Shown: positions 41,255 through 59,171 of the stretch, piece after piece
Position numbering within the stretch: the first letter of the stretch is position 1
Layout: each line of letters opens with the position of its first letter
NCBI GenBank assembly: GCA_013032095.1
Contig: WQBJ01000001.1
Coordinates: 248,001-312,000, forward strand
Direction of reading: 5' to 3'
Length of the DNA stretch: 64,000 bases
Origin: Ruegeria atlantica
Lineage (GTDB): Bacteria > Pseudomonadota > Alphaproteobacteria > Rhodobacterales > Rhodobacteraceae
Program-made: the position numbers and the translations under genes
The notes under the pieces: generated by a model
The model's database searches: none
What the model was told of the DNA's origin: nothing
Seen by the model: only the letters and a program-made list of their open reading frames with translations

Positions 41255-41307
41255 CAAGACTTCAACAGACCCCGAAAACGGGGCACTAACAACTAGGAGA
41301 TATGAAG

Positions 41308-42429: not shown

Positions 42430-43164
42430 ATGCAGAAAAAATGGAATAAAATGCAGGGATTTGCATCAGAATTCAGTTCCGCACTTTCTCTCATCCTGAA
42501 TGGGGATGCAGAGCTGTGGGCGATTGTGCTGTTATCCCTAAAAGTTTCTGTCTTTGCCGTGTTGATCTCTGCGCTGATCGGGATGCCGGTTGGAGCCGCT
42601 TTGGCCGTTGCCCGCTTTCCGGGACGACGGGTGCTGATCGTTTTGATGAACGCCTTGATGGGGTTGCCTCCAGTTGTAGTTGGCTTGTTGGTCTACCTGA
42701 TGTTGTCGCGTTCAGGGCCTCTGGGCGTTCTGGAATTGCTCTACACGCCGACCGCCATGATCATCGCGCAGGTGGTTCTGGTTACACCCATAGTTGCGGC
42801 TCTGACACGGCAAGTGGTCGAGATGTTGGCTGAGGAATACTCAGAGCAGCTCCGCTCTCTGGGCGTGTCGCGACTGGCTTCGGTGCCGGTATTGTTGTGG
42901 GATGCAAGGCTGGCGCTGTTGACCGCGCTGCTGGCCGGTTTTGGGCGTGCCATTGCTGAAGTTGGGGCAGTCATCATCGTGGGCGGCAACATCAACCATG
43001 TGACGCGGGTGATGACAACGACCATCGCGCTTGAAACTTCCAAGGGTAATCTGGCATTGGCTTTGGCGCTTGGCGCAATCCTGATCGGTATTGCTGTAGC
43101 CGTTAACGCTATGGTCAGTACGCTCAGCCTGCGCGCCGAGCAGGAGGGGCTGCGCCATGCGTGA
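42430..43164 (+). CDS. tupB: Tungstate ABC transporter permease TupB
   Basis: 244 residues. About five membrane helices with the permease coupling loop (EEYSEQLRSLGVSRLASVPVLLWDARLAL) and the family block FGRAIAEVGAVIIVGGNINHVTRVMTT typical of tungstate/molybdate-type permeases. The start is uncertain: ATG 42430 or the later ATG 42451, neither with a good SD. The role is assigned from tupA downstream. Its end overlaps tupC by 8 bp. Confidence 0.87.
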   Translation: MQKKWNKMQGFASEFSSALSLILNGDAELWAIVLLSLKVSVFAVLISALIGMPVGAALAVARFPGRRVLIVLMNALMGLPPVVVGLLVYLMLSRSGPLGVLELLYTPTAMIIAQVVLVTPIVAALTRQVVEMLAEEYSEQLRSLGVSRLASVPVLLWDARLALLTALLAGFGRAIAEVGAVIIVGGNINHVTRVMTTTIALETSKGNLALALALGAILIGIAVAVNAMVSTLSLRAEQEGLRHA

Positions 43165-43891
43165 CCTGGTCTCGGAAATGGCGAGTTGCCTGTCGGTGGA
43201 TGGGGTGCGGATTTCCCGCAAGGGCAAGGTATTACTGGATGTGTCGCAACTCTCGCTAGACGGCCCCGGGCCAACCTTGATCCTTGGGCCAAACGGTTCG
43301 GGTAAAAGCCTGCTGTTGCGCTGCCTGCATGGGCTGATCGTGCCGGATCGTGGTCAAGTCAGGCAGGATGGCGTGGTCCTGAATGCCAACCACAAGGCGC
43401 GGCAAGGGATGGTATTTCAACAACCCGTGCTGTTACGCCGATCGGTTGCGGCCAATTTGGATTTCGTCCTGAAGCGCCAAGGTTTTTCCCGCAGGCTACG
43501 GAAGTCCCGTATCGAAGGGTTGCTGGCTGAGGGTGGGCTGGATGGAAAAGCCCGCCAGTCCGCACGCTCGCTGTCAGGGGGTGAAGCGCAACGGTTAGCG
43601 ATTTTGCGCGCTCTCGCACTGGACCCCGAGACGCTGTTTTTGGACGAACCCACCAGCGCGCTGGATCCCAACGCCACGCAGATGATCGAACGGATGATCC
43701 TGAGGGCCTCGTCCCGAAGTGTGCGTATCGTCATGGTGACACATGACATCGGACAGGCTCGGCGGTTGGCCGCCGATATCGTGATGATGCAGGGCGGTCA
43801 TGTGGTTGAACACGGGGTCGCCAAACAGGTACTGGATGCCCCCGAAAGCGATGCCGCGCGCCGATATCTGGCAGGTGGGCTGGTCACTTAA
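43157..43891 (+). CDS. tupC: Tungstate ABC transporter ATPase TupC
   Basis: 244 residues. Walker A GPNGSGKS, signature LSGGEAQRL, Walker B LFLDEPTSALDP and switch VTHDIGQA. SD AGGAGG before the ATG within the tupB end. Powers TupB. No accessory regulatory ligand-binding domain of the ModC type is fused. Confidence 0.9.
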   Translation: MRDLVSEMASCLSVDGVRISRKGKVLLDVSQLSLDGPGPTLILGPNGSGKSLLLRCLHGLIVPDRGQVRQDGVVLNANHKARQGMVFQQPVLLRRSVAANLDFVLKRQGFSRRLRKSRIEGLLAEGGLDGKARQSARSLSGGEAQRLAILRALALDPETLFLDEPTSALDPNATQMIERMILRASSRSVRIVMVTHDIGQARRLAADIVMMQGGHVVEHGVAKQVLDAPESDAARRYLAGGLVT

Positions 43892-43909: not shown

Positions 43910-44725
43910 ATGATCCGGAATATCGTTCGGGCAGCCTTGATAGCTGTTGGTCTGTCGGCAGGGGCGGCCAATGCCGAAGAATCGTTTATCGTGGTGCAGT
44001 CGACGACTTCGACCCAGAATTCGGGACTGCTGGATTACATATTACCATGGTTTGAGGCCGAAACGGGCATTGACGTGCGCGTGGTCGCCGTTGGTACAGG
44101 GCAGGCGATAAGGAATGCGATTAATGGGGACGGAGATGTTTTGCTGGTACACGCTAAACCGGCCGAAGAACAGTTTGTGATTGACGGCTGGGGCGTTGAG
44201 CGGCTTGACGTCATGTACAATGATTTTGTGTTGGTCGGGCCAAAATCCGATCCGGCAAAGGTCAAGGGTGGCCTAGATGTGGCGGTGGCTCTAGCTGCTG
44301 TAGCCGAGGCAGAGGCCCCCTTTGCCTCGCGCGGAGATGACAGTGGTACTCACAAAGCAGAACTGCGCTTGTGGGTTGCGGCGGATACTGATCCGACTGG
44401 GGCGTCGGGGACCTGGTATCGTGAAACCGGCTCGGGCATGGGGGCAACGCTGAATGTTGCCAGCGGGATGGGAGCCTATGCGCTGACGGATCGCGCTACG
44501 TGGCAGTCCTTTGGGAATAAAGGAAACATGGAGGTTTTGGTCGAAGGTGATCCGCGTTTGTTTAACCAGTACGGTGTTATTCTGGTTAACCCCGAGAAAC
44601 ATCCACGTGTGCGTGCCGCTGCCGGGCAGAGGTTCATCGATTGGCTCACAGGCCCTGACGGGCAGGCGGCGATTTCGTCCTACAAGCTGGATGGCCAGCA
44701 ATTGTTCTTTCCGAACGCTAAATAA
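43910..44725 (+). CDS. tupA: Periplasmic tungstate-binding protein TupA
   Basis: 271 residues. Signal peptide to about residue 22 (GAANAEE). The mature start VVQSTTSTQNSGLLDYILP carries the TTST-type motif of TupA tungstate/vanadate binders, and FASRGDDSGTHKAE is the second conserved binding region. Ends in the pattern QRFIDWLTGPDGQAAISSY. Delivers tungstate to TupBC, probably for the FDH encoded next door. Convergent with the regulator gene, 4 bp apart. Confidence 0.93.
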   Translation: MIRNIVRAALIAVGLSAGAANAEESFIVVQSTTSTQNSGLLDYILPWFEAETGIDVRVVAVGTGQAIRNAINGDGDVLLVHAKPAEEQFVIDGWGVERLDVMYNDFVLVGPKSDPAKVKGGLDVAVALAAVAEAEAPFASRGDDSGTHKAELRLWVAADTDPTGASGTWYRETGSGMGATLNVASGMGAYALTDRATWQSFGNKGNMEVLVEGDPRLFNQYGVILVNPEKHPRVRAAAGQRFIDWLTGPDGQAAISSYKLDGQQLFFPNAK

Positions 44726-44729
44726 TGCG

Positions 44730-45602
44730 TCATCCACTCGCACCATTATGGTGGATTGTGCCCAGGCCGGACAGGTCATAACCACCAAATTCGGTGGCGC
44801 GGGTGCTGAAACGCTCTGATTGCACAAAGCTGAGCAGTTTCAGCATGGGGTCATCGAAATAGGCACGGCGCCAGATTGCAAGATCCAGACGTTCGGAATG
44901 GGTCGGTGCAAAACCCAGGTCGTATAGCCCAGCCAAGGCGCCCAGCCCGAACCCGGCCTCGGCTTTGCTGTCGTGCAGGGCAATGGCCAGTTCCTCTTCG
45001 GTGCGGGCGCAGGTGGGCAGGGTATCCAGATCGTCGCGTGTCAAACTGTGGGCTTCTAGCTGAGTATCGAACAGGCGTTGGCTGGCAGCGCTGTCCTGGC
45101 GCAGGATGACGCGCCGTCCTTTCAGGTCGGAAAACCCGGTGATGTCGGTGGTTTCGGGTGCCAAAAGTAGCCCGCGCTGCCTTTGTGCGATTTCGTACAG
45201 AACCACCGGGGCCTCGCCTAAGTGGTCGCGCAGGGCTTGCGTGTTGAAACCGTCGTCTTCGTGAATGTGCAGGGCGGCGGCCTGAGCACTGCGATCTTTC
45301 AGACGGTTCAGCCCGTCAAATGAGCCGTCATAATAAGTTGCCAATCCCGAACCACTTTCGCGCAGCGCCCAGTCCAGCAAAGGGTCGTGGCTGCCGGCAA
45401 CGATTGGGGGTAGCGGCGGTTCGGCGACCTGGGGTCCCGAGCGTGAGGCATTGAGCCAAGCGATAACTTCGGCCCGGGGAAACAGAAGCTTTCCCATGGC
45501 GCGCACGCATGGGACTTCACCGGATGAGGCCAGGTCATAGGCTTTCCGCTCGCCAATGCGCAGCAGGTCGGCCAACTCTTTGGTGGTCAGGTATTCGGAC
45601 AT
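44730..45602 (-). CDS. HTH regulator with PBP-like domain, candidate tungstate/molybdate sensor
   Basis: 290 residues. An excisionase/MerR-like helix-turn-helix at 3-50 (YLTTKELADLLRIGERKAYDL, then RAEVIAWL). From about residue 68 a periplasmic-binding-protein-like domain follows (SHDPLLDWALRESGSGLATYYDGSFDGLNRL; RRVILRQDSAASQRLFD), as in PBP-like regulators linked to molybdenum. No signal peptide, so it acts in the cytoplasm. Last gene of the FDH operon: its ATG directly follows the stop of the 41-residue ORF. It faces tupA. Sensing of tungstate or molybdate is an inference from fold and position. Confidence 0.82.
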   Translation of the reverse strand: MSEYLTTKELADLLRIGERKAYDLASSGEVPCVRAMGKLLFPRAEVIAWLNASRSGPQVAEPPLPPIVAGSHDPLLDWALRESGSGLATYYDGSFDGLNRLKDRSAQAAALHIHEDDGFNTQALRDHLGEAPVVLYEIAQRQRGLLLAPETTDITGFSDLKGRRVILRQDSAASQRLFDTQLEAHSLTRDDLDTLPTCARTEEELAIALHDSKAEAGFGLGALAGLYDLGFAPTHSERLDLAIWRRAYFDDPMLKLLSFVQSERFSTRATEFGGYDLSGLGTIHHNGASG

Positions 45603-45728
45603 TCAGTCTAGGCGTACCGCTGAACCGGAGCCTGCATCAGCTGCGCTGAACCCGATCTGTTGCAACGCAAAGGGGGCTGCGACAGTAATCACAACCATTG
45701 CGGCCACAGCGGCTAGAAAGGCTTTCAT
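45603..45728 (-). CDS. 41-residue membrane peptide in the FDH operon
   Basis: Small ORF encoding 41 residues: MKAFLAAVAAMVVITVAAPF, then ALQQIGFSAADAGSGSAVRLD. A single hydrophobic segment (residues 3-24) is followed by a small polar end. Its ATG overlaps the stop of the WD40-cytochrome gene (ATGA), and its stop is directly followed by the regulator's ATG, so it is coupled at both ends and very unlikely to be chance. It could be a membrane subunit or an exported peptide (the segment also resembles a signal peptide). Too short for most gene finders. Confidence 0.8.
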   Translation of the reverse strand: MKAFLAAVAAMVVITVAAPFALQQIGFSAADAGSGSAVRLD

Positions 45729-47002
45729 TGGTCTCCTCCGGTTGCGTTCCCAGGTGCTGTTGCGCGGCGCAGAAAGGCGATCAAATCGTCACGGTCCTGC
45801 GTCTGTGTAATCCGCTGCATCGGCATCTTTGACCCCGGAATGTAGTGGTCTGGCCCCTCGTCGAAAAGGGCATTTATCGTCTCGTCATTCCAAATGATAT
45901 CAGAGTCTTGCAGTGTGTCCGAGTAGAAATATCCCGGTAGTGTTCCAGCTTTGCGGCCAAAGACTCCATGCAGGGTTGGCCCCGCACGCCTTTCACCATC
46001 AGGTGTCAGGCTGTGACAGATCGAGCATTTACGGGCAAATTGGCGTTCGCCGTTGCTCATGTCGTCTGGGTTCTTCAGAAAGCTGGGTTCAGCTGAGGCC
46101 ATCTGTTCCTGATCACCAAGAGCCGAAATAGGCCAACTGTACATCGCCTCGTCAATGCCGCCTGCATGGAGGTTCTGGCCGTCCGTTGAAAAGGCCAACG
46201 CCCAGACCGGCCCGCGCAATGTGGCACGGAAGTCCTGCGCGATACGCCATTCCTGCGTATCGACGATCATGATGTAGCCCTCACCGTCGCCGACCGCCAA
46301 AATGCTGCGGTCCGGACTAAGCGCCAGCGCCAGAATAGGGCGGCGGTCGAGGGTGAAGTCGCGTTCGTCGCCGGTACTCAAGTCCAGAATGCGCGTCACT
46401 CCATCTACCGCACCATAGGCAATCCAGTTGTCTTGGGTGTTCAGAACAAGCTCGTTGATCCCGAACCCATGTTCGATCAAACGCTGTGTTTCCTGTCCAC
46501 CGGCGACATCCCACACGCGCAGCGTTCCGTCCATTCCAGCGGAGTAGAGCGTTGAGCCATCTGGTGAAAATGTAACGGCATTTACACCGCTGCCCACAGT
46601 CAGCGTTCGCGGATCCGAACCATCTTCGGGCCATATCCCGATGGTGCCATCCCAACTAGCGGTTGCCACATGGGTTTTCGAGGCCGCCAGCCCCACAATC
46701 TTTCCTTTATGCTGGCCGACGATTTCTCCTCCAGGCCAGCGGCGCAAAGTGAAATCATCTCCGGCCGAATAGATCGCACGTCCGTTGAACGCCACGGAGT
46801 TAACGGCGGCCTCGTGCCCTTCGAGCCACTCTGGCCTGCGGTCCGACCACAGGCCGACCGAGTTGTCAAAGCTGGCCGTGGCAATCCGTCCGTCCGGCGA
46901 GGTGGCGATCCCCATGATCGGCCCACCGTGACCCTTAAGCGTGAAGAACTCGGCCATGGCGGGTAGGGGAACCAGCGCCAGGGCCATGACCAGCCCCCGC
47001 AT
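45725..47002 (-). CDS. WD40 beta-propeller fused to cytochrome c
   Basis: 425 residues with a short signal peptide (to about AMAEF). Residues 18-320 hold seven WD40-like blades (e.g. KGHGGPIMGIATSPDGRIAT; SFDNSVGLW; SWDGTIGIW; GMDGTLRVWD). A class I cytochrome c domain follows, with heme site CSICH about residue 340 and a Met ligand probably in KMPMQR. Expected periplasmic, heme attached there. ATG directly follows the stop of the cytochrome-b gene. It probably takes electrons from, or docks onto, the FDH complex. WD40 domains are unusual in bacterial redox operons. Confidence 0.85.
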   Translation of the reverse strand: MRGLVMALALVPLPAMAEFFTLKGHGGPIMGIATSPDGRIATASFDNSVGLWSDRRPEWLEGHEAAVNSVAFNGRAIYSAGDDFTLRRWPGGEIVGQHKGKIVGLAASKTHVATASWDGTIGIWPEDGSDPRTLTVGSGVNAVTFSPDGSTLYSAGMDGTLRVWDVAGGQETQRLIEHGFGINELVLNTQDNWIAYGAVDGVTRILDLSTGDERDFTLDRRPILALALSPDRSILAVGDGEGYIMIVDTQEWRIAQDFRATLRGPVWALAFSTDGQNLHAGGIDEAMYSWPISALGDQEQMASAEPSFLKNPDDMSNGERQFARKCSICHSLTPDGERRAGPTLHGVFGRKAGTLPGYFYSDTLQDSDIIWNDETINALFDEGPDHYIPGSKMPMQRITQTQDRDDLIAFLRRATAPGNATGGDQ

Positions 47003-48211
47003 CTATTCCGCAGGGGAGGCCGCTGCCTTTTCGGCCTCTTTTTCCTGAACTTCTTCAAGCCATAGCGAGTGATGCTCACGCGCCCATTGCTCTTCGACCT
47101 CGCCGGTGCCCATCGCATCGAAGGCGCCTTCCATTCCGACCGAGCCGAGGTAGATATGCGCGATGATGATGGCGATGAACACATAGGCGACCATCACGTG
47201 CCAGACTTGTGCGTACTGCATCTCTTCTTGCGGAGACATCTGCGTTGGCAAGTTCAGGCCCAGCATCTGAGGAATGCCTGTGGAATTGGCGACCTCGAAC
47301 GTTTTGGCGAACATCGGTAGTTCGAACGGGAACAGCAAAGACAGGCCCGACAGGCTGATCGAAACGCCTAGCAGGATGCAGGCCCAGAAGATAACTTTTT
47401 GGCCCGCGTTGAACTTCTTGGCGGGCGGGTGGCTGCCCTTGGTGAACAAACCTCCTCCGGCGGCCAGCCATTTCAGGTCGGTGCGGTTGGGGATATTGTG
47501 AGCAATCCAGTTCACAGTGACGATGATCAGCCCCAGCATGAAGGACCATGCGAGGTTGTTGTGCAGCCATTTGCACCCCTGTGCGATGGTCGCAAAGCCT
47601 TCTTTCCCGAAGACCGGGATCAGGAAGTCGCGGCCATAAAGAGTTAGCAGGCCCGTTATCCCGAGGACCAGGAACGACCCGGCAAACAGCCAGTGACCGA
47701 AGCGTTCAAAGCCGTTGAATCGAGTGACCGTGCGGCCGGTCTTGTCTCCGTCAATGCGGATTTTTCCTCGGATCAAGAAAAACAGCACGATGATGGCAAC
47801 CATTCCGCCAAGGATATAGGTACCGTATTCGCGCAGAGGCCCGGTGCGAAAGTTCAGCCACCACATGCCGCCATCCTGTATCAGAACACCCGCTGCTGGC
47901 CCCTTGGACGAAACCGTGGTGTTCGCCGAGCCGTATCTAATCGCGCGATAAACATCGCTGTCAGAGGCAACACCGCGCGTCCCCAACTGGCCCAGAAGAC
48001 CTTCGGCGTTGCCCTGTCCGGTGTTTTCCGAGCGATAGCTGTTGTCCACCTTTTCCCCGCGCTGCCGGGCGAGAATGTCCTCAAGCGTCGTCGCTCCACC
48101 GGTTTGAGCGCGTTCATCGGTCGTAGGTGCAGGTTCGGCGTCGTTTGTCTGGGCTGCGACAGCGTTGGCCAAACCTAGGGCGAACAGAAATGCAATGAAT
48201 AAGCGGAACAT
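47003..48211 (-). CDS. fdhC: Formate dehydrogenase cytochrome b (gamma) subunit
   Basis: 402 residues from ATG 48211, chosen for the SD GAGG 5 nt upstream; an in-frame start at 48226 adds five residues. Signal peptide (FIAFLFALGLANAVAAQT), then a periplasmic part of about 100 residues. Four transmembrane helices follow (YILGGMVAIIVLFFLI; FGHWLFAGSFLVLGITGLL; NLAWSFMLGLIIVTVNWIAH; IFWACILLGVSISLSGL), with a further helix near the end (WHVMVAYVFIAIIIAHIYLG). Heme-binding histidines are in these. Passes electrons to the quinone pool. Confidence 0.92.
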   Translation of the reverse strand: MFRLFIAFLFALGLANAVAAQTNDAEPAPTTDERAQTGGATTLEDILARQRGEKVDNSYRSENTGQGNAEGLLGQLGTRGVASDSDVYRAIRYGSANTTVSSKGPAAGVLIQDGGMWWLNFRTGPLREYGTYILGGMVAIIVLFFLIRGKIRIDGDKTGRTVTRFNGFERFGHWLFAGSFLVLGITGLLTLYGRDFLIPVFGKEGFATIAQGCKWLHNNLAWSFMLGLIIVTVNWIAHNIPNRTDLKWLAAGGGLFTKGSHPPAKKFNAGQKVIFWACILLGVSISLSGLSLLFPFELPMFAKTFEVANSTGIPQMLGLNLPTQMSPQEEMQYAQVWHVMVAYVFIAIIIAHIYLGSVGMEGAFDAMGTGEVEEQWAREHHSLWLEEVQEKEAEKAAASPAE

Positions 48212-48284
48212 CTGAACCTCGGTCAAAATCCCTGATCAGGCGACCCACGGATGCGGGTCGCCTGTTTGGTTCATGAAAGCGGTC

Positions 48285-48878
48285 TTAGCCGTCTTTCTGG
48301 TCGTAGGCCGTGCCCCAACCCCATGCGCCCGAGCCAAATCCGCGCGCGACGACGCGCTCGCGGTAGATGGCCGAGACCACGTCGCCGTCACCGGCAAGCA
48401 GGGCCTTGGTGGAGCACATCTCGGCGCAGAGGGGCAGTTTGCCCTCGGCGATCCGGTTGCGACCATATTTGGCGAACTCTGCGGTCGAGTGCGTTTCCTC
48501 GGGACCACCAGCGCAGAAGGTACACTTGTCCATCTTGCCGCGTGATCCGAAGTTGCCGGCCTGCGGGTATTGCGGCGCGCCGAATGGGCACGCGTAGAAG
48601 CAATAGCCGCAACCGATGCACAGGTCCTTAGAGTGCAGGACGACCCCTTCTTCGTTTTGATAGAAGCAGTCAACCGGGCACACCGCCATGCAGGGCGCAT
48701 CCGAGCAATGCATACAGGCCACCGAGATCGAGCGTTCACCCGGGTCCCCATCATTGATCGTCACCACCCTACGGCGGTTGATGCCCCATGGTACCTCGTG
48801 CTCGTTCTTGCACGCGGTGACGCAGGCGTTGCACTCGATGCAGCGTTCAGCGTCGCAGAGAAACTTTGCTCTAGCCAT
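48285..48878 (-). CDS. fdhB: Formate dehydrogenase iron-sulfur (beta) subunit
   Basis: 197 residues. Several 4Fe-4S sets: [44 protein letters not shown] and CTFCAGG with CAEMC near the end. Carries electrons from FdhA to FdhC. The C-terminus lacks the long membrane anchor of E. coli FdnH. Fits the FDH3-type subunit. 11 bp after fdhA. Confidence 0.94.
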
Positions 48879-48889: not shown

Positions 48890-51784
48890 TTACGCTGCCG
48901 AGATCTTGCAGAGAGTCGCTTTGGTCTCCTGCATCTGGGTCACTGAATCGTAGCCATAGGTCTGGGCGGTGTTGGAACTTTCACCCAGCACATAGGGATC
49001 AGCACCTGCGGGGTATTTGTCCCGCAAATCCTTCCCTTGGTAATGGCCGCCGAAGTGGAATGGCATGAAGGCCACGCCGGCACCGACCCTGTTGGTCAGC
49101 ATCGCCATCACCTTGACCTTGCCGCCTTCGGGACCTTCAACCCAGACCTGTTGCCCATCACGGATACCAAGGTTGTTGGCATCGCGCGGGTTGATCTCGA
49201 CGAACATGTCTTGCTGCAGCTCGGCCAGCCACGGGTTCGACCGAGTCTCCTCGCCGCCGCCCTCATATTCGACCAAACGACCTGACGTGAGGATTATCGG
49301 ATAATCCTTTGAAAAGTCGTTCTTCTGGATCGAGGCATAAAGGGTCGGAAGGCGATAGGCCTGCCGGTCCTCGTAGGTCGGATAGTCTTCCACCAGATCG
49401 CGCCGGTTCGTATAGAGCGGCTCGCGATGGAGTGGGATCGGATCCGGGAAAGTCCAGACGACCGCGCGGGCTTTTGCGTTCCCGAAGGGCGCACACCCAT
49501 GCTCGATCGCGACCCGCTGGATGCCGCCCGAAAGGTCGGTTTTCCAGTTGGTCTTTGGACCCGCAACGGCGTCGATAGCCGCGCGTTCCTCGGGCGTCAG
49601 GTCACCGTCCCAGCCAAGGTCCATCAGCATCTGCATCGTGAATTCAGGATATCCATCCTGAATTTCCGATCCGGCGCTATAGACCCCTTCGGCCAGCAGG
49701 TTATCTCCATCGCGTTCCACACCGAAACGGGCGCGGAATGTCAGGCCGCCTTCGGCTACCGGTTTGGACATGTCATAGAGGTTTGGAGTCCCCGTATGAC
49801 CCATTTCTGGCGTTCCCCAGCAAGGCCACGGCAAACCATAGTACTCGCCGTCGTTCGGTCCACCAATGGCTTGCAGCGTGGTTCTGTCGAACGTGTGCTG
49901 GTTGGCCATATGGCTTTTCAGACGTTCAGGCGATTGCCCGGTATATCCGATGGTCCAGAGGCCCCTGTTGAACTCACGTGTGATGCTTTCAACATTCGGG
50001 GTTTCGGGATCTTCCATTTCGATATTGCGGAAGAACCGATCTGCCCAGCCGAACTTGTTGGCGAACTTGGCCATGATGACTTCGTCCGGCAGGCTTTCGA
50101 ACAACGGTTCCACCACCTTGTCACGCCACTGTAGCGACCGGTTCGAGGCCGTGACCGAGCCACGGGTTTCGAACTGCGTACAGGCGGGTAACAAGTAGAC
50201 GCCATCGGTGCGGTCATGCAGAACGGCGGAAACGGTGGGATACGGGTCGATCACGACCAGCATGTCCAGCTTCTCCATCGCCGTCTTCATTTCCGGTCCC
50301 CGCGTTTGCGAGTTCGGAGCATGACCCCAAAGGACCATGGCGCGGACGTTGTTGTCCTGATCCATGTTTGCCGGGTCTTCCAGAACACCGTCGATCCAGC
50401 GGGAAACAGGGATGCCGCGCTCATTCTGTAGCGGCTTGTCCTTGCCTTCCTTGTCCTTGATCGTGGCAAACTGACCAGCCAGCCATTCCGGTTCTTCACC
50501 CCAGACACGCGCCCAGTGCCCCCAGGCACCTGCGGATAGGCCGTAATAGCCGGGCAGGGTGTGGGACAGAACACCAAGGTCCGTCGCGCCCTGCACATTG
50601 TCATGGCCGCGGAAGATGTTGGTACCTCCACCCGATGTGCCCATGTTGCCCAGAGCAAGCTGGAGCACGCAGTAGGCTCGGGTGTTGTTATTGCCATTGG
50701 TGTGCTGCGTACCGCCCATACACCAGATCACCGTACCGGGACGGTTGTTGGCCATGGTGCGGGCCACGCGGCGCAACTGAGAGCCGGGCGTGCCGGTGAC
50801 GCGTTCAACCTCATCCGGGTTCCACTTGGCAACCTCTTCACGGATCTGGTCCATACCCCAGACACGGGTGCGGATGAACTCTTTGTCCTCCCAGCCGTTG
50901 TCGAAGATGTGCCACAGGATACCCCAAACCAAAGCGACGTCCGTGCCGGGGCGGAAGCGGACATATTCATCCGCATGCGCCGCGGTGCGCGTAAAGCGCG
51001 GGTCGCAGACGATCAGCGGGGCGTTGTTCTGCTCTTTCGCGCGCAGAACGTGCAGCAGCGAGACGGGATGCGCCTCGGCCGGGTTGCCGCCGATGATGAA
51101 GATGGCCCGAGAGTTATGGATGTCGTTGTACGAATTGGTCATGGCGCCGTAGCCCCATGTATTCGCAACACCCGCAACGGTGGTTGAGTGGCAGATACGG
51201 GCCTGATGGTCCACGTTGTTCGTGCCCCAGTAGGCGGCGAACTTGCGGAACAGATAGGCCTGTTCGTTATTGTGCTTCGCCGAGCCCAGCCAGTACACGC
51301 TGTCTGGCCCGGATTCTTCGCGGATGCTCATCATGCCGTCGCCGATCTCGTTGATCGCCTCTTCCCAGCTGATCCGCTTCCACTCGCCACCTTCCTTTTT
51401 CATCGGATACTTGAGGCGGCGTTCGCCATGGGCGTGCTCGCGAACCGAGGCCCCCTTGGCGCAGTGTGCACCCAGATTGAACGGGCTGTCCCAACCGGGT
51501 TCCTGCCCGATCCAGACGCCGTTCTGCACTTCGGCAACGACTGTACAGCCAACCGAACAATGGGTGCATACGGATTTGATATTTTCCACGGCAGTGTTTG
51601 CCGCTGTCTGGGCGCTGGCTGGCGTCACGGTTCCACCCGTGGCGCTGATCGCGGCGAGGCCGCCGATCGTCAGGCCCGAGCCACGCAGGAATGCGCGGCG
51701 ATCGACGGTTTTCTCGCCGATCTGGGACAGGATACTTGTCCGCTGGGGGCGTCTCGCAACCCCGTTGGTCTTTTTCCTTAGCAT
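48890..51784 (-). CDS. fdhA: Formate dehydrogenase catalytic (alpha) subunit, W/Mo-bis-MGD enzyme
   Basis: 964 residues. Tat signal with the twin arginines in [10 protein letters not shown] (Arg29-30) and cleavage near PASAQT, so periplasmic. 4Fe-4S cysteines 73, 76, 80 and 108. The metal ligand is Cys198 in [11 protein letters not shown], followed by the invariant [12 protein letters not shown]; no in-frame TGA, so no selenocysteine. The C-terminal molybdopterin-dinucleotide domain includes [20 protein letters not shown]. Oxidises formate to CO2. The adjacent tungstate importer suggests tungsten as metal (inference). Confidence 0.95.
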
Positions 51785-52166: not shown

Positions 52167-52778
52167 TCACCCCGCCGTCATTCGGAAGGCTTCACGCTCT
52201 ATCTCCATGAACACCCGACCGGCAGTACCGACCGAGGCATAGAGAACCGAGTTTTCAGCGGCTTCCAAATCCGAATAGAAATGCGTGGCCCAGGGGCCCA
52301 CATGTTTGCTCCAGAACGCCTTTTGATCCTCCAGAGACGCAGGCGCGCCGAAGCGACCAACAATCATGCCCGCCATCATCTCCATCAGCGAGGCGATGTT
52401 ATCCTCGGGCTCAAACACGTTTTGTGCTCGCGTGATGCCGCGTGCGGCCATGTCGTTGCGCAGCTGCGCCAGAGGTTTCTCGTTCAGGAAACCTGTCAGG
52501 TAGAAGCTGGCATAGGGCAGCAACTCACCCCGGCCAAGCCCGATGAACAGAGCGTTGAACTCGCGTTCCGCGGCGGCAGGCTTTGTTACTTTGGCAACAC
52601 GGGCCATGGCCTGAATGGCTTGGCCGAGTTCGGTCTCGTCGCCCGTCAGGCCCGACATCTGGTTCAGAAGCAACTGATCGGGGGGCGCTGCCAGCAGCAG
52701 ACCGAGGAAATTGTAGAAATCCGCGCGCAGGCGATCCTCTGCTGAGATATCCAGATTGTGCGCGTTGTCTGCGGTCAT
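52167..52778 (-). CDS. TorD/DmsD-family chaperone for FdhA
   Basis: 203 residues from ATG 52778, preceded by GAAGG; a TTG at 52799 would add seven residues. All-helical with the family elements LRADFYNFLGLLLAAPP, EFNALFIGLGRGELLPYASFYLTGFL and WATHFYSDLEAA. Members bind Tat signals of molybdo- and tungstoenzymes and hold the protein until cofactor insertion. Context points to FdhA as client. Four bp after the DUF3306 stop. Confidence 0.9.
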   Translation of the reverse strand: MTADNAHNLDISAEDRLRADFYNFLGLLLAAPPDQLLLNQMSGLTGDETELGQAIQAMARVAKVTKPAAAEREFNALFIGLGRGELLPYASFYLTGFLNEKPLAQLRNDMAARGITRAQNVFEPEDNIASLMEMMAGMIVGRFGAPASLEDQKAFWSKHVGPWATHFYSDLEAAENSVLYASVGTAGRVFMEIEREAFRMTAG

Positions 52779-52782
52779 TCGG

Positions 52783-53355
52783 TCATCCTTCAAATTCAAA
52801 TTTCATGCGACGCGGGGCAGGGGGCAGTTCGACCTCTTCCGGCTCTTCCGCTTCAGCAACCAAAACTGGCTGGGGTGCAGGGTCTTCCTCCAAGTCGGGC
52901 TCCAAATCGGTTTCCGGCACTTCGGGTTCGTCTTCTGAACGGGGCTCTTCAGCCTCGGCAGCCAAGGCCTCGATATGGGCCAGCATGCCTTTGCCGACCT
53001 GATAGGCTGTTGGAATATTCTCGATCACGCAGGCGGCGTCGGTATAGTCCTCGCCGTAATCAACCAGCCCATCCACGTTGGCCAGTACCGGGTTCAGCCG
53101 CCACAACCGGCGCAGGGCGCGACGGCGCAGGCGGTCGGGTATTGCCTTGGCCATGAAACCCGAAACATCATCTCCGGCCTGCAACTGATCGGGATCGGGC
53201 AGGTTGAACTCGGCTAGAATCTCGGCGTCGCTCTTTTCTTCCAGCTCGGCCTGCTGAGCGGCGATAGCTTGTTCTTCGGCCGCGAAAACTTCCGCTTCGG
53301 TTTCCGCCTGAACGGCGGCTTTGCGGCGGGACCAGAAATCGCGGGCTTGCGTCAT
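52783..53355 (-). CDS. DUF3306 protein of the FDH operon
   Basis: 190 residues. Begins FWSRRKAAVQ and has IPDRLRRRALRRLWRLNPVLANVDGLVDYGEDYTDA, the DUF3306 core. Then an acidic, Pro-rich tail ending FEFEG. No membrane segment. Known only from its association with formate dehydrogenase genes; function unknown. ATGA overlap with DUF3305 upstream. Confidence 0.88.
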   Translation of the reverse strand: MTQARDFWSRRKAAVQAETEAEVFAAEEQAIAAQQAELEEKSDAEILAEFNLPDPDQLQAGDDVSGFMAKAIPDRLRRRALRRLWRLNPVLANVDGLVDYGEDYTDAACVIENIPTAYQVGKGMLAHIEALAAEAEEPRSEDEPEVPETDLEPDLEEDPAPQPVLVAEAEEPEEVELPPAPRRMKFEFEG

Positions 53356-53906
53356 TGCACGATCCTCCGCGGCGCGCGGTAGACGTCTGAGTCCTGACGG
53401 ATACGCGCATCACCCTTGCCGTCTTCTACAAGGTCTGTCCGTTTCTTGTCGCGGCGGCGTTTGACGAAGACCTCATCACGGTGATGTTCCAGCGCGAAAT
53501 CCCGAACCCAAGCGATCAGCCCTTCGGACATCGGAATCTTCTCAACGATCTCTTCTCCGGTATCCGCATAGTCTTGCCCTTCGAACGGGGACGCCGTGAC
53601 AAGCACCGCGTCCATCGGGCGTTCGTCATCCAGCGCATCGCGTAGAACAAGGTAGATCGAAGGTTGCCCATCCGACAGGTTGACCATGTAGGCCTCGGTC
53701 TCGTCAGCCCAGAGGGTTAGGGGAAGGGTCGCGGCGTGATATTCAACAGCTTCACCTTCGCGGCGCAACTCCTGCCAGTCGGCAGGCCCAGCACCGGGCA
53801 GCACGGCGACGGCGCGCCAGTTCCATTTCGCCCAGCGAGTAACACCGGGTGTTTTGCGAACGACGACGCCGATTGGCATTTCAATCTGGCTTGCGGCCTT
53901 GGCCAC
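53352..53906 (-). CDS. DUF3305 protein of the FDH operon
   Basis: About 184 residues. The start is placed at the GTG at 53906 because GGGGAGGAG lies 3-5 nt upstream; an ATG at 53942 is the alternative and would add 12 residues. Core IEMPIGVVVRKTPGVTRWAKWNW, typical DUF3305, with a basic C-terminus (KRRRDKKRTDL). First gene of the FDH operon. Function unknown; in relatives it always travels with DUF3306 and FDH. Probably cytoplasmic. Confidence 0.85.
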   Translation of the reverse strand: MAKAASQIEMPIGVVVRKTPGVTRWAKWNWRAVAVLPGAGPADWQELRREGEAVEYHAATLPLTLWADETEAYMVNLSDGQPSIYLVLRDALDDERPMDAVLVTASPFEGQDYADTGEEIVEKIPMSEGLIAWVRDFALEHHRDEVFVKRRRDKKRTDLVEDGKGDARIRQDSDVYRAPRRIVQ

Positions 53907-53963
53907 TGACTCCTCCCCGAAAGGCTCTCCCCTGCCTTCCATGGCGTCTACTATGGTACACAA

Positions 53964-54155: not shown

Positions 54156-56111
54156 ATGAGTACCAAACTTTTGCTTTGCAATTGCGTCGGCAGCCAAACT
54201 GTTGACGGCGACAATATTGGTGTGGCGTGCCAAGTTGACTGCTCCAAAACACATAAGGCGCTTTGCACCGATGAATTGAGCGTAGCAGCAGAGTTATTGA
54301 AAGAGGGCGAGCAGGTTGTGATTGCCTGCGGGCAGGAGCAAGAGGTGTTTCGAGCCCTTGCTGATGAATTGAATGTCGAAGCGCCGGGATTTGTGGACCT
54401 GCGCGACCGCGCCGGGTGGTCTGAGCAGGGCAGTGACGCAACGCCCAAGATGGCCGCTTTGGCCGCCGAGTCGCTGCTGCCGCAACCAATCACGCCCAGT
54501 TTAGACGTCTACAGCGACGGCACCTGTTTCATTGTCGGGCCCGGTGAGGTTGCCTTTGATCTGGCCGAGTGGCTGTCTTCTGTTTTGGCAGTGACGGTTT
54601 TGCTGACAGATGACGAACAGCCAATGACGCGGGCGTTTGACGTGGTGCGCGGACAACTTCGGTCGCTGAACGGTGCATTGGGCGGGTTCTCTTTGCAATT
54701 AAACAGCCTGCAGCAACTTCAACCGGGTGGCCGTGGGGCCTTTGCGTGGTCCAAGCCTCGCGATGGGGCGCGTTCGACCTGTGACATTGTCATTGATTTG
54801 TCCGGAGGCACCCCCTTCGTTCAAGCTCCCGCCAAGCGCGAAGGGTATTTGCGGGCCGATCCCAAAGATACGGTTGCCGTAGAACGCCTGGCCTTCGAGG
54901 CCGCCCAACTGGTCGGCACGTTTGAAAAGCCGCTCTATGTGCGGATAGAGGAGACGCTCTGCGCCCATTCTCGCGCCGAGCAGGTCGCCTGTACCAACTG
55001 TCTGGATATCTGCCCAACGGGTGCAATCACACCAGCGGGCGAGCATGTCTCTATCGACCCAATGGTATGCGCCGGATGCGGTGAATGCGCAGCGGTATGT
55101 CCTTCGACCGCGATTACCTACGAGGACCCACCGGTATCGGCCCTGTTATCGCGCATGCACATTCTGGCGCGGACCTATCGCCGGGCAGGGGGTGAGGCCC
55201 CCCGTCTTTTGGTTCATGACGCGTATGGGGCCGAGATGATCCGACTGGCTGCTCGTTTTGGGCGTGGTTTGCCTGCGGATGTCATCCCACTTGAGTTGAA
55301 CGTGATCTCGGGCTTTGGTCATGCCGAGATGCTGGCTGCTCTGGCGCATGGTTTCGCTCGGGTCGATGTTTTAATGGCCCCGACTACAGAACGTGATGCA
55401 TTGGGCCGAGAACTGGCGTTGGCCCAGGCGATTGCTGGGCCGGACGGGGTGGGGTTGATCGATGAGGCCGACCCGGATGCAATGACAGACCTGCTCTATG
55501 AGCAGGACGTACCACAACCTCTTGCCGACCCGGTTCTGCCGCTGGGCAACCGAAGGCAAATCGCGCGGCTGTCGGCACAGGCGTTGAACCCGCAGGCCGA
55601 GGCGCCTCTGCCGCTGCCAGAGAACGCGCCCTATGGGGCCGTTGCCGTGAAAACGGATGCCTGTACGCTGTGTCTGAGCTGCGTGTCGCTGTGTCCGTCC
55701 GGTGCATTGATCGACAACCCGGATAAACCGCAACTGAACTTTCAGCAGGACGCTTGTCTACAATGTGGTCTGTGCAAGGGCATCTGCCCAGAGAACGCGA
55801 TTACTCTTGTCCCGCAACTGGACCTCAGCGATGCGGCCTTGTCTCAGCAGGTGCTGAATGAGGAGGAGCCTTTTGCATGCGTCGAATGCGGCGCATTGTT
55901 TGGAGTGAAGTCCACTGTCGAACGGATTATGGAGAAGCTCTCGGGTACGCATCCGATGTTTGCCACCTCGGACAAAGCGCGGATGATCCAGATGTGCGAC
56001 AACTGCCGTGTCAACGCGCAGTTCCAGCAGCAGGACAATCCGTTCCAGTCGAAACCGAAACCCAAGGTCGTTACGACCGAAGACTATTTTTCACAACGAA
56101 AGGATCATTGA
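54156..56111 (+). CDS. Polyferredoxin (multi-4Fe-4S protein) of the FDH locus
   Basis: 651 residues. N-terminus LLLCNCVGSQTVDGDNIG with further cysteines. A middle ferredoxin pair has CTNCLDICPTGAI and CAGCGECAAVCPSTAI, and a C-terminal pair has CTLCLSCVSLCPSGAL and CLQCGLCKGICPENAI. Late cysteines (FACVECGALFG; MCDNCRVN) may hold another metal. No signal peptide, so cytoplasmic, unlike FdhA-C. Similar proteins recur divergently beside FDH3 operons; electron transfer or sulfur/metal-cofactor delivery are both possible. SD GGGGGAGG before ATG. Confidence 0.88.
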   Translation: MSTKLLLCNCVGSQTVDGDNIGVACQVDCSKTHKALCTDELSVAAELLKEGEQVVIACGQEQEVFRALADELNVEAPGFVDLRDRAGWSEQGSDATPKMAALAAESLLPQPITPSLDVYSDGTCFIVGPGEVAFDLAEWLSSVLAVTVLLTDDEQPMTRAFDVVRGQLRSLNGALGGFSLQLNSLQQLQPGGRGAFAWSKPRDGARSTCDIVIDLSGGTPFVQAPAKREGYLRADPKDTVAVERLAFEAAQLVGTFEKPLYVRIEETLCAHSRAEQVACTNCLDICPTGAITPAGEHVSIDPMVCAGCGECAAVCPSTAITYEDPPVSALLSRMHILARTYRRAGGEAPRLLVHDAYGAEMIRLAARFGRGLPADVIPLELNVISGFGHAEMLAALAHGFARVDVLMAPTTERDALGRELALAQAIAGPDGVGLIDEADPDAMTDLLYEQDVPQPLADPVLPLGNRRQIARLSAQALNPQAEAPLPLPENAPYGAVAVKTDACTLCLSCVSLCPSGALIDNPDKPQLNFQQDACLQCGLCKGICPENAITLVPQLDLSDAALSQQVLNEEEPFACVECGALFGVKSTVERIMEKLSGTHPMFATSDKARMIQMCDNCRVNAQFQQQDNPFQSKPKPKVVTTEDYFSQRKDH

Positions 56112-56833
56112 AGCTGTAAAGGAGCGCCCAGATCGGCGGCTTTGATGGCCGAGACGAAGGCTAGAATCGCGTCCAGTTCGTCCAGAGTCATCTCGACCGG
56201 GTGAATGGGCGATGGGCGTTCTGGGGCGAAAGGCAGAGTAACCCCGTCGATCTGTGTAAAGGCGGGGTGGGGGTTCAGCGCAAAGAAGGCCTCGAACCGC
56301 TCCGACCAGTCCGGCATTGCACGCAGCACCGCAAAAGACGGGGTCGAGCCCAGACCGTTCATCCGGTTTTGTGGCCCGATCACATGGCAGCGTCCGCAAT
56401 GGGTCATCGACAGCTCCTCACCCCGTGCGGCGTCCCCTTCGATCACTATGTCTTCTTGTGTGGTTGCGACTTCGAAACTGGCCGAGAAGGGCGCGCCCTG
56501 TTCCGGAGTAAAGCTTTCGACTGTGTTCTTGCCGATATCGGACAGCAGCCAGTCGCGGAATCGTTCGTGTTTGGCGTCGTCTCCGATACGCAGGTGATAT
56601 ATCACACCGTCGCGGGCAAAGACCGGGTCGCCAGGCGCAGCAGTTTCCAGCACTAAAACGCCCGCTTCGTCGGGAATAACGCGTATCCCGGTCTTGAGCG
56701 AGAAGCGTGGAAGAATATGTTGCAACAGACCAGAGTCTTTTACCTCGGCCGGGGCGGCGAGCCCCAACGCCTCTTGCGACCAAGAGGGGCTGGTAGAGAG
56801 CGTCAGGCTCAGGCACAAAAGGACAAAGCGCAT
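56105..56833 (-). CDS. Cytochrome c with a truncated TupA-like domain
   Basis: 242 residues. Signal peptide to about SWSQ. Residues 33-120 align with TupA in two blocks: DSGLLQHILPRFSLKTGIRV (34-53) with TupA 37-56, and GDP-(V)F-GVI-...-ERFRDWL-..GK.T.ES (68-117) with TupA 213-258; about 150 residues between them are missing, as is the TTST ligand motif. A cytochrome c domain follows, heme site HCGRCH at 145-150, Met ligand probably in NRMNGLG or later. Periplasmic. Convergent with the polyferredoxin (7-bp overlap). Possibly an electron acceptor of FDH. Confidence 0.85.
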   Translation of the reverse strand: MRFVLLCLSLTLSTSPSWSQEALGLAAPAEVKDSGLLQHILPRFSLKTGIRVIPDEAGVLVLETAAPGDPVFARDGVIYHLRIGDDAKHERFRDWLLSDIGKNTVESFTPEQGAPFSASFEVATTQEDIVIEGDAARGEELSMTHCGRCHVIGPQNRMNGLGSTPSFAVLRAMPDWSERFEAFFALNPHPAFTQIDGVTLPFAPERPSPIHPVEMTLDELDAILAFVSAIKAADLGAPLQLQ

Positions 56834-56897: not shown

Positions 56898-56945
56898 ATG
56901 AAATTCAACCACATGGTTGGGCACCCCAAAGGAGAAAAGGCATGA
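56898..56945 (+). CDS. Possible 15-residue leader peptide before apbC
   Basis: ATG 56898 has GGAG 9 nt upstream and opens MKFNHMVGHPKGEKA, whose TGA overlaps the apbC ATG (ATGA). A palindrome CAACCAcaTGGTTG (56906-56919) lies within it. It could couple translation or gate the apbC SD. Seen: SD, ATG, stop overlap. Translation unproven. Confidence 0.35.
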   Translation: MKFNHMVGHPKGEKA

Positions 56946-58003
56946 GTGTTCGTGATGCGGTTCTGGCGAACCTGAAAAAGATCACCGATCCTGTGTCCGG
57001 TCAGGATATCGTTAGTGCAGGCGTCGTCCGCGCGCTGAATGTCGAAGGCGACACAGTTCGTTTCGTGCTGGAAATTGATCCCAAGCAGGCTGAGAGGATG
57101 GAACCCGTTCGCGCCGCCGCCGAACAGGCCGCTCAGATGGTCGAAGGGATCGACAAGGTCTCGGCCATGATGACCGCGCATTCCGATAAGGCACCGCCGG
57201 ATCTGAAGCCCAAACCAAAGCCATCGCAGACCGGACCGCAGGCCGTTCCGGGTGTGGACCGGATTATTGCCGTGGCTTCGGGCAAAGGCGGCGTCGGTAA
57301 ATCCACCGTTTCTGCCAACCTCGCTTGTGCGTTGGCCGCTGAAGGTCGTCGCGTTGGTCTGTTGGACGCCGATGTCTATGGGCCATCGCAGCCTCGGATG
57401 CTGGGTGTCTCTGGTCGCCCTGCCAGCCCGGACGGAAAGACCATCCTGCCGCTGCGCAATCACGGTGTCACCATGATGTCGATGGGCTTGATGACCAATG
57501 AAGGGCAGGCGGTCGTCTGGCGTGGCCCCATGCTGATGGGGGCGCTGCAACAGATGATGAATCAGGTGCAATGGGGCGCGCTCGACGTGCTGATCGTCGA
57601 CTTGCCGCCCGGCACCGGCGACGTACAACTTACGCTGAGCCAGAAGTTCAAGGTGGACGGTGCAATCGTTGTTTCTACCCCGCAGGACGTCGCCCTGATC
57701 GACGCCCGCAAGGGAATCGATATGTTCAATCAGCTAAAGACGCCGATCGTCGGGATGATCGAGAATATGTCGACTCATATTTGCTCGAACTGCGGGCATG
57801 AGGAGCACGTGTTCGGTCATGGCGGTGTTGCGTCCGAGGCCGAGGCGCTGGGCGTCCCGCTGTTGGGGGAAATCCCGCTGCATCTGGACATCCGGGTCGC
57901 GGCTGACGGAGGTGCGCCCATCGTGGTCAGCAAGCCCGAAAGCGCGCAGGCCGAGGCGTTCCGCAAGATAGCCCGCGACATGATCGCAAAGGGCAACGCA
58001 TGA
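56942..58003 (+). CDS. apbC: Mrp/ApbC-type Fe-S cluster carrier ATPase
   Basis: 353 residues. An N-terminal MIP18-type domain at 1-100 (VLANLKKITDPVSGQDIVSAGVV) and a deviant Walker A in ASGKGGVGKSTVSANLA about residue 112. The NBP35 core follows with VDLPPGTGDVQLT and the cluster-binding CSNCG (MSTHICSNCGH). Carries and delivers Fe-S clusters; here next to FDH genes and the polyferredoxin, so perhaps for FDH maturation. Overlaps the next gene by ATGA. SD AAAGGAG. Confidence 0.92.
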   Translation: MSVRDAVLANLKKITDPVSGQDIVSAGVVRALNVEGDTVRFVLEIDPKQAERMEPVRAAAEQAAQMVEGIDKVSAMMTAHSDKAPPDLKPKPKPSQTGPQAVPGVDRIIAVASGKGGVGKSTVSANLACALAAEGRRVGLLDADVYGPSQPRMLGVSGRPASPDGKTILPLRNHGVTMMSMGLMTNEGQAVVWRGPMLMGALQQMMNQVQWGALDVLIVDLPPGTGDVQLTLSQKFKVDGAIVVSTPQDVALIDARKGIDMFNQLKTPIVGMIENMSTHICSNCGHEEHVFGHGGVASEAEALGVPLLGEIPLHLDIRVAADGGAPIVVSKPESAQAEAFRKIARDMIAKGNA

Positions 58004-58692
58004 GCGAGCCGGTCTTCCCCCCCTTGCTAGTGGGGCATCCGGTGCAGGGTGGGGAAAGCCCATTTGAGCGCGCTCAGGCAATGGCCGCGCTGGGGTGTGA
58101 TGCAGGGTCGGTCGTGTACAACATTCAGGCCGACCGCCTGCGCGTGGCCATCGTCTTTGCGCCTGAGGTGCCATTGAAGGACGCCATGGCGATGTTGCCT
58201 CTTTGCGCTGTCGGATTTCAAAACGCGCTGGGCGCGCTGGCTCCGCCAGAGGTCGCGGTTCATCTGGGTTGGGATGGTCTGATCTGCGTGAACGGCGCGA
58301 AATGCGGGATGTTCCATTGCGTATCTTCTACTGGTGATCCCGAGACCGAACCAGACTGGCTGGTGGTCGGCTGGGAATTGGCGTTGCTTCAGACCGGAGA
58401 AGATCCGGGGAAAACGCCGGATGTCACGGCGCTCTATGATGAAGGCTGTGCCGACGTCTCGGCCGTACAACTGGTCGAAAGCTGGTCGCGGCACATGCTC
58501 ACCTGGCTCAACCGTTGGCAGGAGGATGGCAATGCCCCTCTGCATGGTGAATGGATGGGCTTACTCCGGGGTGTTGGCGAACCCTGCGAGACGGGCGTAT
58601 TTTTGGGCACGGACGAGCGGTTTGGCATGTTGATCCGCGACGGCTCGGAAACCCGGTTGCGCCCCATGACGGAATTGTTGGAGAACGGATGA
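58000..58692 (+). CDS. Biotin/lipoate-ligase-like protein (BPL/LplA-like, DUF4444)
   Basis: 230 residues. The N-terminal half looks like a biotin/lipoate protein ligase fold (LLVGHPVQGGESPFERAQAMAALG; AVHLGWDGLICVNGAKCGMFHC). The C-terminal 60 residues (HGEWMGLLRGVGEPC...GVFLGTDERFGMLIRDG) match the DUF4444 tail. The Lys-containing ATP motif of true ligases is not evident, so activity is uncertain. Coupled on both sides by ATGA overlaps to apbC and the DUF6505-like gene. Recurs in FDH loci, from memory. Confidence 0.8.
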   Translation: MSEPVFPPLLVGHPVQGGESPFERAQAMAALGCDAGSVVYNIQADRLRVAIVFAPEVPLKDAMAMLPLCAVGFQNALGALAPPEVAVHLGWDGLICVNGAKCGMFHCVSSTGDPETEPDWLVVGWELALLQTGEDPGKTPDVTALYDEGCADVSAVQLVESWSRHMLTWLNRWQEDGNAPLHGEWMGLLRGVGEPCETGVFLGTDERFGMLIRDGSETRLRPMTELLENG

Positions 58693-59171
58693 TGAAACTT
58701 GCTCGCGCGATCCATTTCGACGAAAGCGACATGAACGTGTTCCACTCGCCAGCCCGGACCGGAGAATGGTGCATCTCGGGCGGATTCGAGTTTTCGAATT
58801 GGGGGCAGTCCGATCTGGAAGGAAAGGCGCGGCAGGCGTTTTCAAACGGCTGGCTGGGAGTTGAAACCTTCGGACGTGTAACATTTGTGGCGGTCACGCA
58901 GGTTGAACCAGCCGAACTGGATCAGATCGCACAAAACCTGGCTGCGCATTTCGTGCAATTCTATGGCGCGCCTTCGGTCGAAGCAGCACTAGGGGTTGCT
59001 CAGGCTGAGATTCAGCACATGTCCGAGCTTTGCGAGGAACATGCGACCAACACCTTGCTCACGGTCGCCCGCGAATTGTCCGATACTGGCGTGCACGAAG
59101 CGTTCCGCATCATCACCCCGCAAGAGACCCAGCTCGAGGCATTGGCCGTTCACGGTTCACTTGACGAATGA
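58689..59171 (+). CDS. DUF6505-like protein
   Basis: 160 residues from ATG 58689, coupled to the upstream gene (ATGATG; TGA overlaps). Begins KLARAIHFDESDMNVFHSPARTGEWCISGGFEFSN and ends in a long helix (ELCEEHATNTLLTVARELSDTGVHEAFRI). No membrane segment or metal motif clear. Resembles the Rhodobacteraceae DUF6505 family; function unknown. Last gene of the apbC operon; convergent with the flavin reductase gene, 3 bp apart. Confidence 0.78.
   Translation: MMKLARAIHFDESDMNVFHSPARTGEWCISGGFEFSNWGQSDLEGKARQAFSNGWLGVETFGRVTFVAVTQVEPAELDQIAQNLAAHFVQFYGAPSVEAALGVAQAEIQHMSELCEEHATNTLLTVARELSDTGVHEAFRIITPQETQLEALAVHGSLDE

Follow-up and report, generated by a model that had tools for sequence, protein, structure and literature searches.

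Gene structure and domains of the fusion protein

We analysed a stretch of 64,000 nucleotides from Ruegeria atlantica (assembly GCA_013032095.1, contig WQBJ01000001.1, positions 248,001 to 312,000 of the forward strand; hereafter the window), which carries a formate dehydrogenase (FDH) locus and, within it, a gene that joins a reduced lobe A domain of the tungstate-binding protein TupA to a cytochrome c. The gene (56105..56833, minus strand) is intact, starts with ATG, encodes 242 residues and has homologues in 136 of 394 genomes of its family, the Rhodobacteraceae. It stands alone between one convergent and one divergent gene, overlapping the convergent 4Fe-4S gene by 7 bases and lying 108 bases from the divergent Mrp-type gene.

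The protein begins with a putative Sec-type signal peptide (residues about 1-19; 56777..56833, minus strand, as are all features of the gene), which was recognized by eye and is consistent with the low predicted local distance difference test score (pLDDT) of these residues in the structure model. The reduced TupA lobe A domain (the N-domain; residues 20-122; 56468..56776) is followed by a variable linker (residues 123-131; 56441..56467) and a cytochrome c domain (residues 132-242; 56108..56440). In the last of these lies CGRCH (residues 146-150; 56384..56398), the predicted heme attachment motif of CxxCH type that an earlier note, made from the sequence alone, had placed behind the N-terminal half.

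Among 23 Ruegeria-type sequences, the median ratio of nonsynonymous to synonymous substitution rates (dN/dS) was 0.146 for the N-domain, 0.845 for the linker and 0.052 for the cytochrome, values that are rough, since the median dS exceeds 1 and is partly saturated. The set consisted of the window and 22 of the loci L002-L028 (L024, L025, L026 and L028 were not entered, and L018 was dropped by length); pairs with dS uncomputable or no greater than 0.05 were dropped, which kept 251 of 253 pairs for the N-domain, 163 for the linker and 234 for the cytochrome. A decaying pseudogene is rejected on the intact reading frame in the window and the low dN/dS.

Common descent of the N-terminal domain and TupA

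The N-domain and TupA share common descent. By BLASTP, the fusion protein aligned to the TupA of the window (271 residues) in two colinear pieces, residues 1-52 against 6-56 (E 8e-5, partly signal peptide) and residues 62-108 against 207-258 (E 0.002), which leaves about 150 central TupA residues without a counterpart; both the shared motifs in TupA order and the central gap had been pointed out in the earlier note. When a profile of 98 fusion N-domains was aligned with one of 25 TupAs by HHalign, the probability was 97.2 (E 8.1e-11), with all 108 columns aligned and a gap of about 150 positions, and under other settings it was 95.2 (E 2.6e-8). As controls, 50 column-shuffled TupA profiles did not exceed 1.5, nor did 16 further gene families from the window exceed 1.8; two of these 16 are other types of periplasmic-binding protein (PBP), whose profiles are small (2 and 12 sequences). 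The 98 N-domains derive from 117 sequences including the window (without L001), which were reduced to 101 at 85% identity, 98 of them with the N-domain.

A hidden Markov model (HMM) of the N-domain was searched against 15,250 open reading frames (ORFs; 2.2 million residues) of the fetched loci and matched 115 of 118 fusion-type ORFs and 24 of 25 TupAs, while nothing else among these ORFs was matched at E up to 10. The 118 include the window gene twice (L001 and the window), near-duplicates and three cytochrome-only genes (L065, L066 and L068), which are the three that the model missed. The full-length family profile retrieved from the sequences of the PDB first 3muq, 3cvg and the TupA structures 5my5 and 3lr1, and then cytochrome c2. 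The profile searches thus led to the TupA family and to no unrelated one, and structure prediction agreed with the suggestion of a reduced tungstate-binding protein, for the predicted fold of the N-domain has the topology of the first lobe of a PBP, with TupA as its best structural match. With the whole-protein model, Foldseek placed the two TupA structures at ranks 2 and 3, and no match reached E<=0.001. The alignments for the structure models took in the 27 close loci and the window, the more diverse loci being left out. XoxJ and MxaJ structures were not named among the 50 fold matches listed for the N-domain, which says nothing either way. Pfam assigned no family to the N-domain of the window protein, and NCBIfam none to the window fusion protein, NF041772 included; the solute-binding models of Pfam matched 4 of 40 relatives at E<=0.01.

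Loss of lobe B and of the oxyanion site

The part of TupA that remains in the fusion is lobe A; lobe B is absent and the oxyanion motif is lost. According to a structural study, the metal site of TupA is formed by TTTS, H59, R118, T124 and D170 (PMC5517513). The TTS ligand motif is conserved in 48 of 49 TupAs but in none of 98 fusions, in line with the earlier note, and the nearest approach to it among the fusion domains is PTS in L077. The site histidine, matched by motif, is present in 48 of the 49 TupAs, and the arginine, threonine and aspartate in all 49, whereas the region that would hold the lobe B site residues (R118, T124 and D170 in the numbering of 5my5) is absent from the fusion. 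Fusion N-domains are 97-143 residues long (n=98), and none has room for lobe B. Two of them, L061 and L058, match positions 20-116 plus 232-274 and 24-117 plus 249-283 of the TupA profile, which amounts to roughly all of lobe A and no lobe B; the window version is also without the middle of lobe A.

Compared with TupA (PBP_like_2, NF041772; 5my5 and 3lr1), the fusion thus keeps the lobe A fold and its sequence order, including SGL, LP, W95 and the C-terminal F, but it has no lobe B, no TTS/H/R/T/D oxyanion site and an attached cytochrome. The structural positions G35, P42 and W95 are common to fusions and TupAs; W95 is present in 98 of 98 fusion N-domains and G101 in 97. In the stretch R43-F44-S45-L46-K47 of helix 1 (56693..56707), three positions are fixed or nearly so among fusions (R in 98/98, F in 98/98, K in 96/98), and in the alignment the positions of R43 and K47 are variable in TupA. 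R43 and K47, fixed only in fusions, read as a new conserved face, which may serve as a contact surface.

Cytochrome domain

Residues C146, C149, H150, P165, F167, P188 and H189 are invariant in all 131 aligned cytochrome domains, and no methionine that could act as sixth ligand is conserved among them. Because H189 and the other residues are invariant and no methionine is conserved, a bis-histidine or five-coordinate heme is plausible from the alignment, with H189 of the PHPxF motif (56267..56269) as the candidate sixth ligand. The Pfam model Cytochrom_C (PF00034) scored 19.5 bits on the window protein (E 0.0026), under its curated cut-off of 21.3, and matched 22 of 40 aligned family members at E<=0.01.

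Neighbouring genes and conservation of the locus

On the plus strand, tupB and tupC (ABC permease and ATPase; 42430..43891), recognized from their order before tupA, their sequence and their homologues in other loci, precede tupA (43910..44725), which encodes a two-lobe TupA-type binding protein (PF12849, E 7.2e-46; NF041772, E 2e-64, at 217.5 bits against a curated cut-off of 400). Adjoining tupBCA lies what we take to be an NMT1-type ABC transporter of two permeases and a binding protein (39441-42297), and 7 of 20 fusion loci carry a relative of this binding protein downstream of FDH. Between tupA and the FDH operon, a gene for an HTH_17 plus PBP_like regulator (44730..45602, minus strand; PF12728, PF12727) is likely to be oxyanion-responsive, and PBP-type domains occur in three different settings within this one locus.

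The FDH operon follows on the minus strand, with a WD40-cytochrome c protein (45725..47002; PF00400, PF00034), a presumed cytochrome b-type membrane subunit, FdhC (47003..48226), the 4Fe-4S subunit FdhB (48285..48878; Fer4 families) and a presumed catalytic subunit, FdhA (48890..51784); FdhC and FdhA were assigned from their ORFs and the conserved order. The WD40 propeller with its C-terminal cytochrome c, located directly after fdhC, is a second fused cytochrome of the FDH system. A TorD/NarJ-type chaperone (52167..52799; PF02613), DUF3306 (52783..53355; PF11748) and DUF3305 (53352..53963; PF11749) lie on the same strand. The genes on the plus strand encode the 4Fe-4S protein convergent with the fusion gene (54156..56111; Fer4 families), the Mrp/NUBPL-type ATPase divergent from it (56942..58003; PF10609), a BPL_LplA_LipB_2/DUF4444 protein (58000..58692; PF16917, PF14563) and DUF6505 (58602..59171; PF20115). 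In many FDH loci (L077, L083, L086, L095, L097, L100 and others), a second, divergent TupA type adjoins the DUF6505 gene; it scores about 244-272 bits to the window TupA and keeps the core site residues. Across the 49 TupAs, the residue before the site motif is S in 27 and V in 20, and the residue after it is T in 26 and F in 20, a pattern suggestive of two subtypes.

Twenty-seven loci with close homologues (21 of them named Ruegeria, at 75-89% identity) all have the full set of neighbour genes. Sixty further family loci include 57 with the fusion, and in 54 of these it has the 4Fe-4S and DUF3305 genes as neighbours. Small variations occur, for instance absence of the Mrp gene; the three loci that deviate are L074, at a contig end, and L085 and L090, where DUF3306 lies elsewhere in the genome. 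Among fusion loci followed downstream, FdhC was present in 18 of 20 and the WD40-cytochrome in 15 of 20, both counted only where the fetched stretch was long enough. Replacement of the WD40-cytochrome by the fusion is ruled out, as the former occurs in 15 of 20 fusion loci and in 10 of 18 loci without a fusion.

Distribution across genomes and link to tungstate uptake

The family sample comprised 394 genomes, nearly one per genus, and the fusion was found in 136 and a cytochrome-only form in 3. These 136 are what remains of 150 matching genomes after 11 with weak matches (E no better than 1.7e-5; where rows were listed, most are short hits on frames of TupA size, and four of the genomes have no such row) and the 3 cytochrome-only genomes were removed; where a locus was not fetched, the presence of the N-domain was judged from alignment coverage. 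The survey of FDH loci suggested in the earlier note thus recovered the same architecture in 27 of 27 close loci and across the family. A plasmid collection added five further records, each with at least 80% coverage of the fusion protein.

DUF3306, a marker of the FDH locus, was detected in 190 of the 394 genomes (189 over its cut-off) and in none of 14 control genomes. It accompanies the fusion in 135 of 136 genomes, the exception being G008 (locus L074), an assembly 82% complete with the gene near a contig end; together with the fixed place in the FDH locus, this supports the link to the FDH locus made in the earlier note. A TupA-type protein was present in 187 of 190 DUF3306 genomes and in 70 of 204 others; this FDH is therefore tied to tungstate uptake, which suggests that FDH of the DUF3306 type uses tungsten. 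Within the DUF3306 genomes, a TupA-type protein occurs in 133 of 135 with the fusion and in 54 of 55 without it (p = 1), so that the tie between fusion and TupA is due to the FDH locus itself and the fusion adds nothing to it. In two fusion genomes, G227 and G290, no TupA-type protein was found at E<=0.001.

Origin of the fusion

Beyond the family, 385 genomes of the class Alphaproteobacteria were surveyed, and matches to the full-length fusion occurred in its own family and in a single other family, where two genomes had them (confirmed in L158 and L159); among 398 genomes of the phylum, at E<=1e-12, it was found in 7, all of its own family. The cytochrome alone was found in nine genomes of other families, which fall on one side of a 95/96 branch of the tree. 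Four of the nine (L148, L149, L150 and L183) have tup genes within 2 kb and FDH-locus genes in the same stretch; their small cytochromes belong to the same family (91-121 bits by HMM) and share the FDH-locus and tup surroundings, but have no TupA-derived domain. Another three of the nine, G471, G575 and G1001, have neither tup nor FDH-locus genes nearby, and in L155, of another family, a cytochrome-only gene occupies the same slot of the locus. In L151 (8489-14195), a cytochrome-only relative is followed by what we take to be a gene for an oxidase-like protein of the twin-arginine translocation (Tat) type, a MoaA-like gene and a 4Fe-4S gene, an arrangement that forms another link to molybdopterin enzymes.

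The tree was built over 112 columns from 91 of 128 cytochrome domains, chosen by a minimum length of 80 residues and thinned for likeness, with weaker relatives such as L156, L157 and L160 left out. Its simplest reading is a single fusion, after which the N-domain was lost twice, and L155 would then be a loss or a transfer and not the ancestral state. A single origin of the fusion is likely but not proven, because 112 columns leave many forks open.

Proposed function and alternative explanations

We propose that the fusion is an exported c-type cytochrome with a PBP-derived docking domain, which would act as a dedicated redox partner of FDH; we give this reading about an even chance. A former tungstate protein would have become attached to a small cytochrome belonging to the same system, and the fusion would then have lost lobe B first and part of lobe A afterwards, leaving the N-domain as a rigid docking domain and not a metal binder. 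The face formed by R43, F44 and K47 may keep the heme domain in place on a partner in the periplasm, the FDH complex being the likeliest, and the heme would accept the electrons of formate oxidation or hand them onward. This mode would resemble that of XoxGJ for methanol dehydrogenase, in which a PBP-derived domain and a heme domain serve one periplasmic dehydrogenase. A wider proposal is offered more tentatively: a one-lobe PBP may have been reused as the docking domain of a dedicated heme partner of a tungsten FDH, opening an unrecognised path by which electrons from formate reach the cytochrome c pool, and living relatives may keep graded stages of this path (whole lobe A, shortened lobe A, and a stand-alone cytochrome beside tup genes); we would sooner expect this combination to fail in some part than to hold throughout.

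Several observations weigh against these proposals. The cytochrome domain was modelled poorly (mean pLDDT 62.5), with no Foldseek match at E<=10. A distant relative, L160, carries a methionine version of the motif, PHPVMPQM, so that H189 may be structural, part of an older Met-ligated motif. The tree needs three label changes, of which the starred branches force at least two. Of the 190 DUF3306 genomes, 55 have no fusion (52 without a strong cytochrome relative and 3 with only the cytochrome). Eighteen such fusion-free loci were fetched, and in 9 of them the Mrp-type gene lies directly beside the 4Fe-4S gene with the slot empty; the protein is therefore dispensable for some FDHs of this kind, and the fusion is an accessory. 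With a cytochrome b subunit in 18 of 20 and a WD40-cytochrome in 15 of 20 fusion loci, it is not the sole electron exit either. Lastly, none of the TupA-type matches in the 394 family genomes reaches the NF041772 cut-off, so that the use of tungsten is putative, and tungstate as the ligand here rests on the family and the site motif; the cut-off seems too strict for this family.

The main rival is a role in FDH assembly or quality control, in which the protein would help to insert or check the tungsten or molybdenum cofactor, the subunits or the redox state of FDH in the periplasm and would not carry respiratory electrons. The neighbours in the locus are indeed mostly accessory (TorD type, DUF3305, DUF3306, Mrp type, 4Fe-4S protein and DUF6505), and XoxJ of extorquens, suggested to activate XoxF (PMC7391723), offers a parallel; yet many FDH loci hold the same accessory genes without the fusion, and stronger constraint on the cytochrome than on the N-domain (dN/dS 0.052) agrees with a redox function. 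We regard assembly as unlikely. The earlier note had instead suggested that the protein might dock on the partner of TupA or act as a heme-bearing sensor. In such a redox gate or sensor, lobe A would bind its half of TupBC or of a related partner, and the heme would report or gate tungstate import. The domain does descend from a TupB-binding protein, a TupA-type protein is found in 134 of 136 fusion genomes, and the tupA gene lies in 24 of 60 family loci (fetched with flanks of about 9 kb per side where the contigs reach that far), but this link is gone once the FDH locus is accounted for (133/135 against 54/55), and lobe B, which would contact the other half of the transporter, is missing. 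G227 and G290 carry the fusion with no detectable TupA, so that docking on TupB is not obligatory, unless these assemblies are incomplete there. Neither docking on the partner of TupA nor a sensor role was borne out, and we consider this reading improbable.

The cytochrome alone might also matter, with the N-domain a passive remnant or spacer. Cytochrome-only forms exist in 3 of 139 family genomes, away from FDH genes, and at the same slot in L155, and the N-domain can therefore be lost. Its median dN/dS of 0.146, its retention in 136 of the 139 family genomes that hold the cytochrome and the presence of R43, F44 and W95 in 98 of 98 domains and of G101 in 97 of 98 speak against passivity, for which we see little probability. 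Descent from another PBP family, such as ModA or the XoxJ/MxaJ type, with a likeness to TupA by convergence, is very improbable: TupA comes first by structure, TupA-type chains come first by sequence profile, and in the ORFs of the fetched loci the profile hits no PBP apart from TupA. The NMT1-type binding protein and the HTH-PBP regulator of the window were rejected as sources on HHalign probabilities of 0.2 and 0.1, obtained with small profiles (2 and 12 sequences). The single-sequence matches are short, as chance similarity would have them, but chance is ruled out by the 50 column-shuffled profiles, the 16 gene-family profiles, the profile scans and the fold, and we leave it next to no probability.

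Comparison with known systems and significance

Fusions of a PBP with a cytochrome are a known kind. The electron acceptor of XoxF in Methylacidiphilum is XoxGJ, in which the cytochrome c XoxG is fused to the PBP-type XoxJ, and in Methylacidimicrobium XoxG and XoxJ are separate genes (PMC8498564). XoxJ has been suggested to activate its enzyme, and loss of XoxJ equalled loss of the enzyme on methanol medium with lanthanum (PMC7391723). The protein described here resembles XoxGJ in that a PBP-derived domain and a c-type cytochrome occur in one chain, here proposed to serve a periplasmic dehydrogenase, and are fused or separate by lineage. It differs in that the partner of XoxGJ is a methanol dehydrogenase with pyrroloquinoline quinone (PQQ), whereas the fusion sits among fdh, DUF3305/3306, TorD and Mrp genes; the PBP part of XoxGJ is of the XoxJ type.

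The fdh operons associated with DUF3305, DUF3306 and TorD in PMC4464133 have the same accessory genes beside fdh, and the accessible part of that article does not mention a TupA-cytochrome gene. In a literature search of titles and abstract openings, with most subscription journals outside its scope, no description of a TupA-cytochrome protein was found. The earlier note, which knew of no comparable fusion in the literature, has to be qualified, since XoxGJ is on record as a PBP-cytochrome fusion (PMC8498564); we know of no earlier account of a TupA relic of a single lobe within an FDH locus.

The usual picture of a PBP is a clam-shell of two lobes that close on the ligand. Here one lobe is kept under constraint in many genera after loss of the ligand site, and intermediates of graded extent occur, which makes visible a path from a binding protein to a likely protein-interaction module. 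If the proposed role is true, PBP-cytochrome pairs would, as with XoxGJ, have arisen more than once for periplasmic dehydrogenases. For the Rhodobacteraceae, the finding places an unstudied heme protein in the gene set of a tungstate-linked FDH that is widespread in the family, and raises the question whether formate oxidation feeds cytochrome c as well as quinone.

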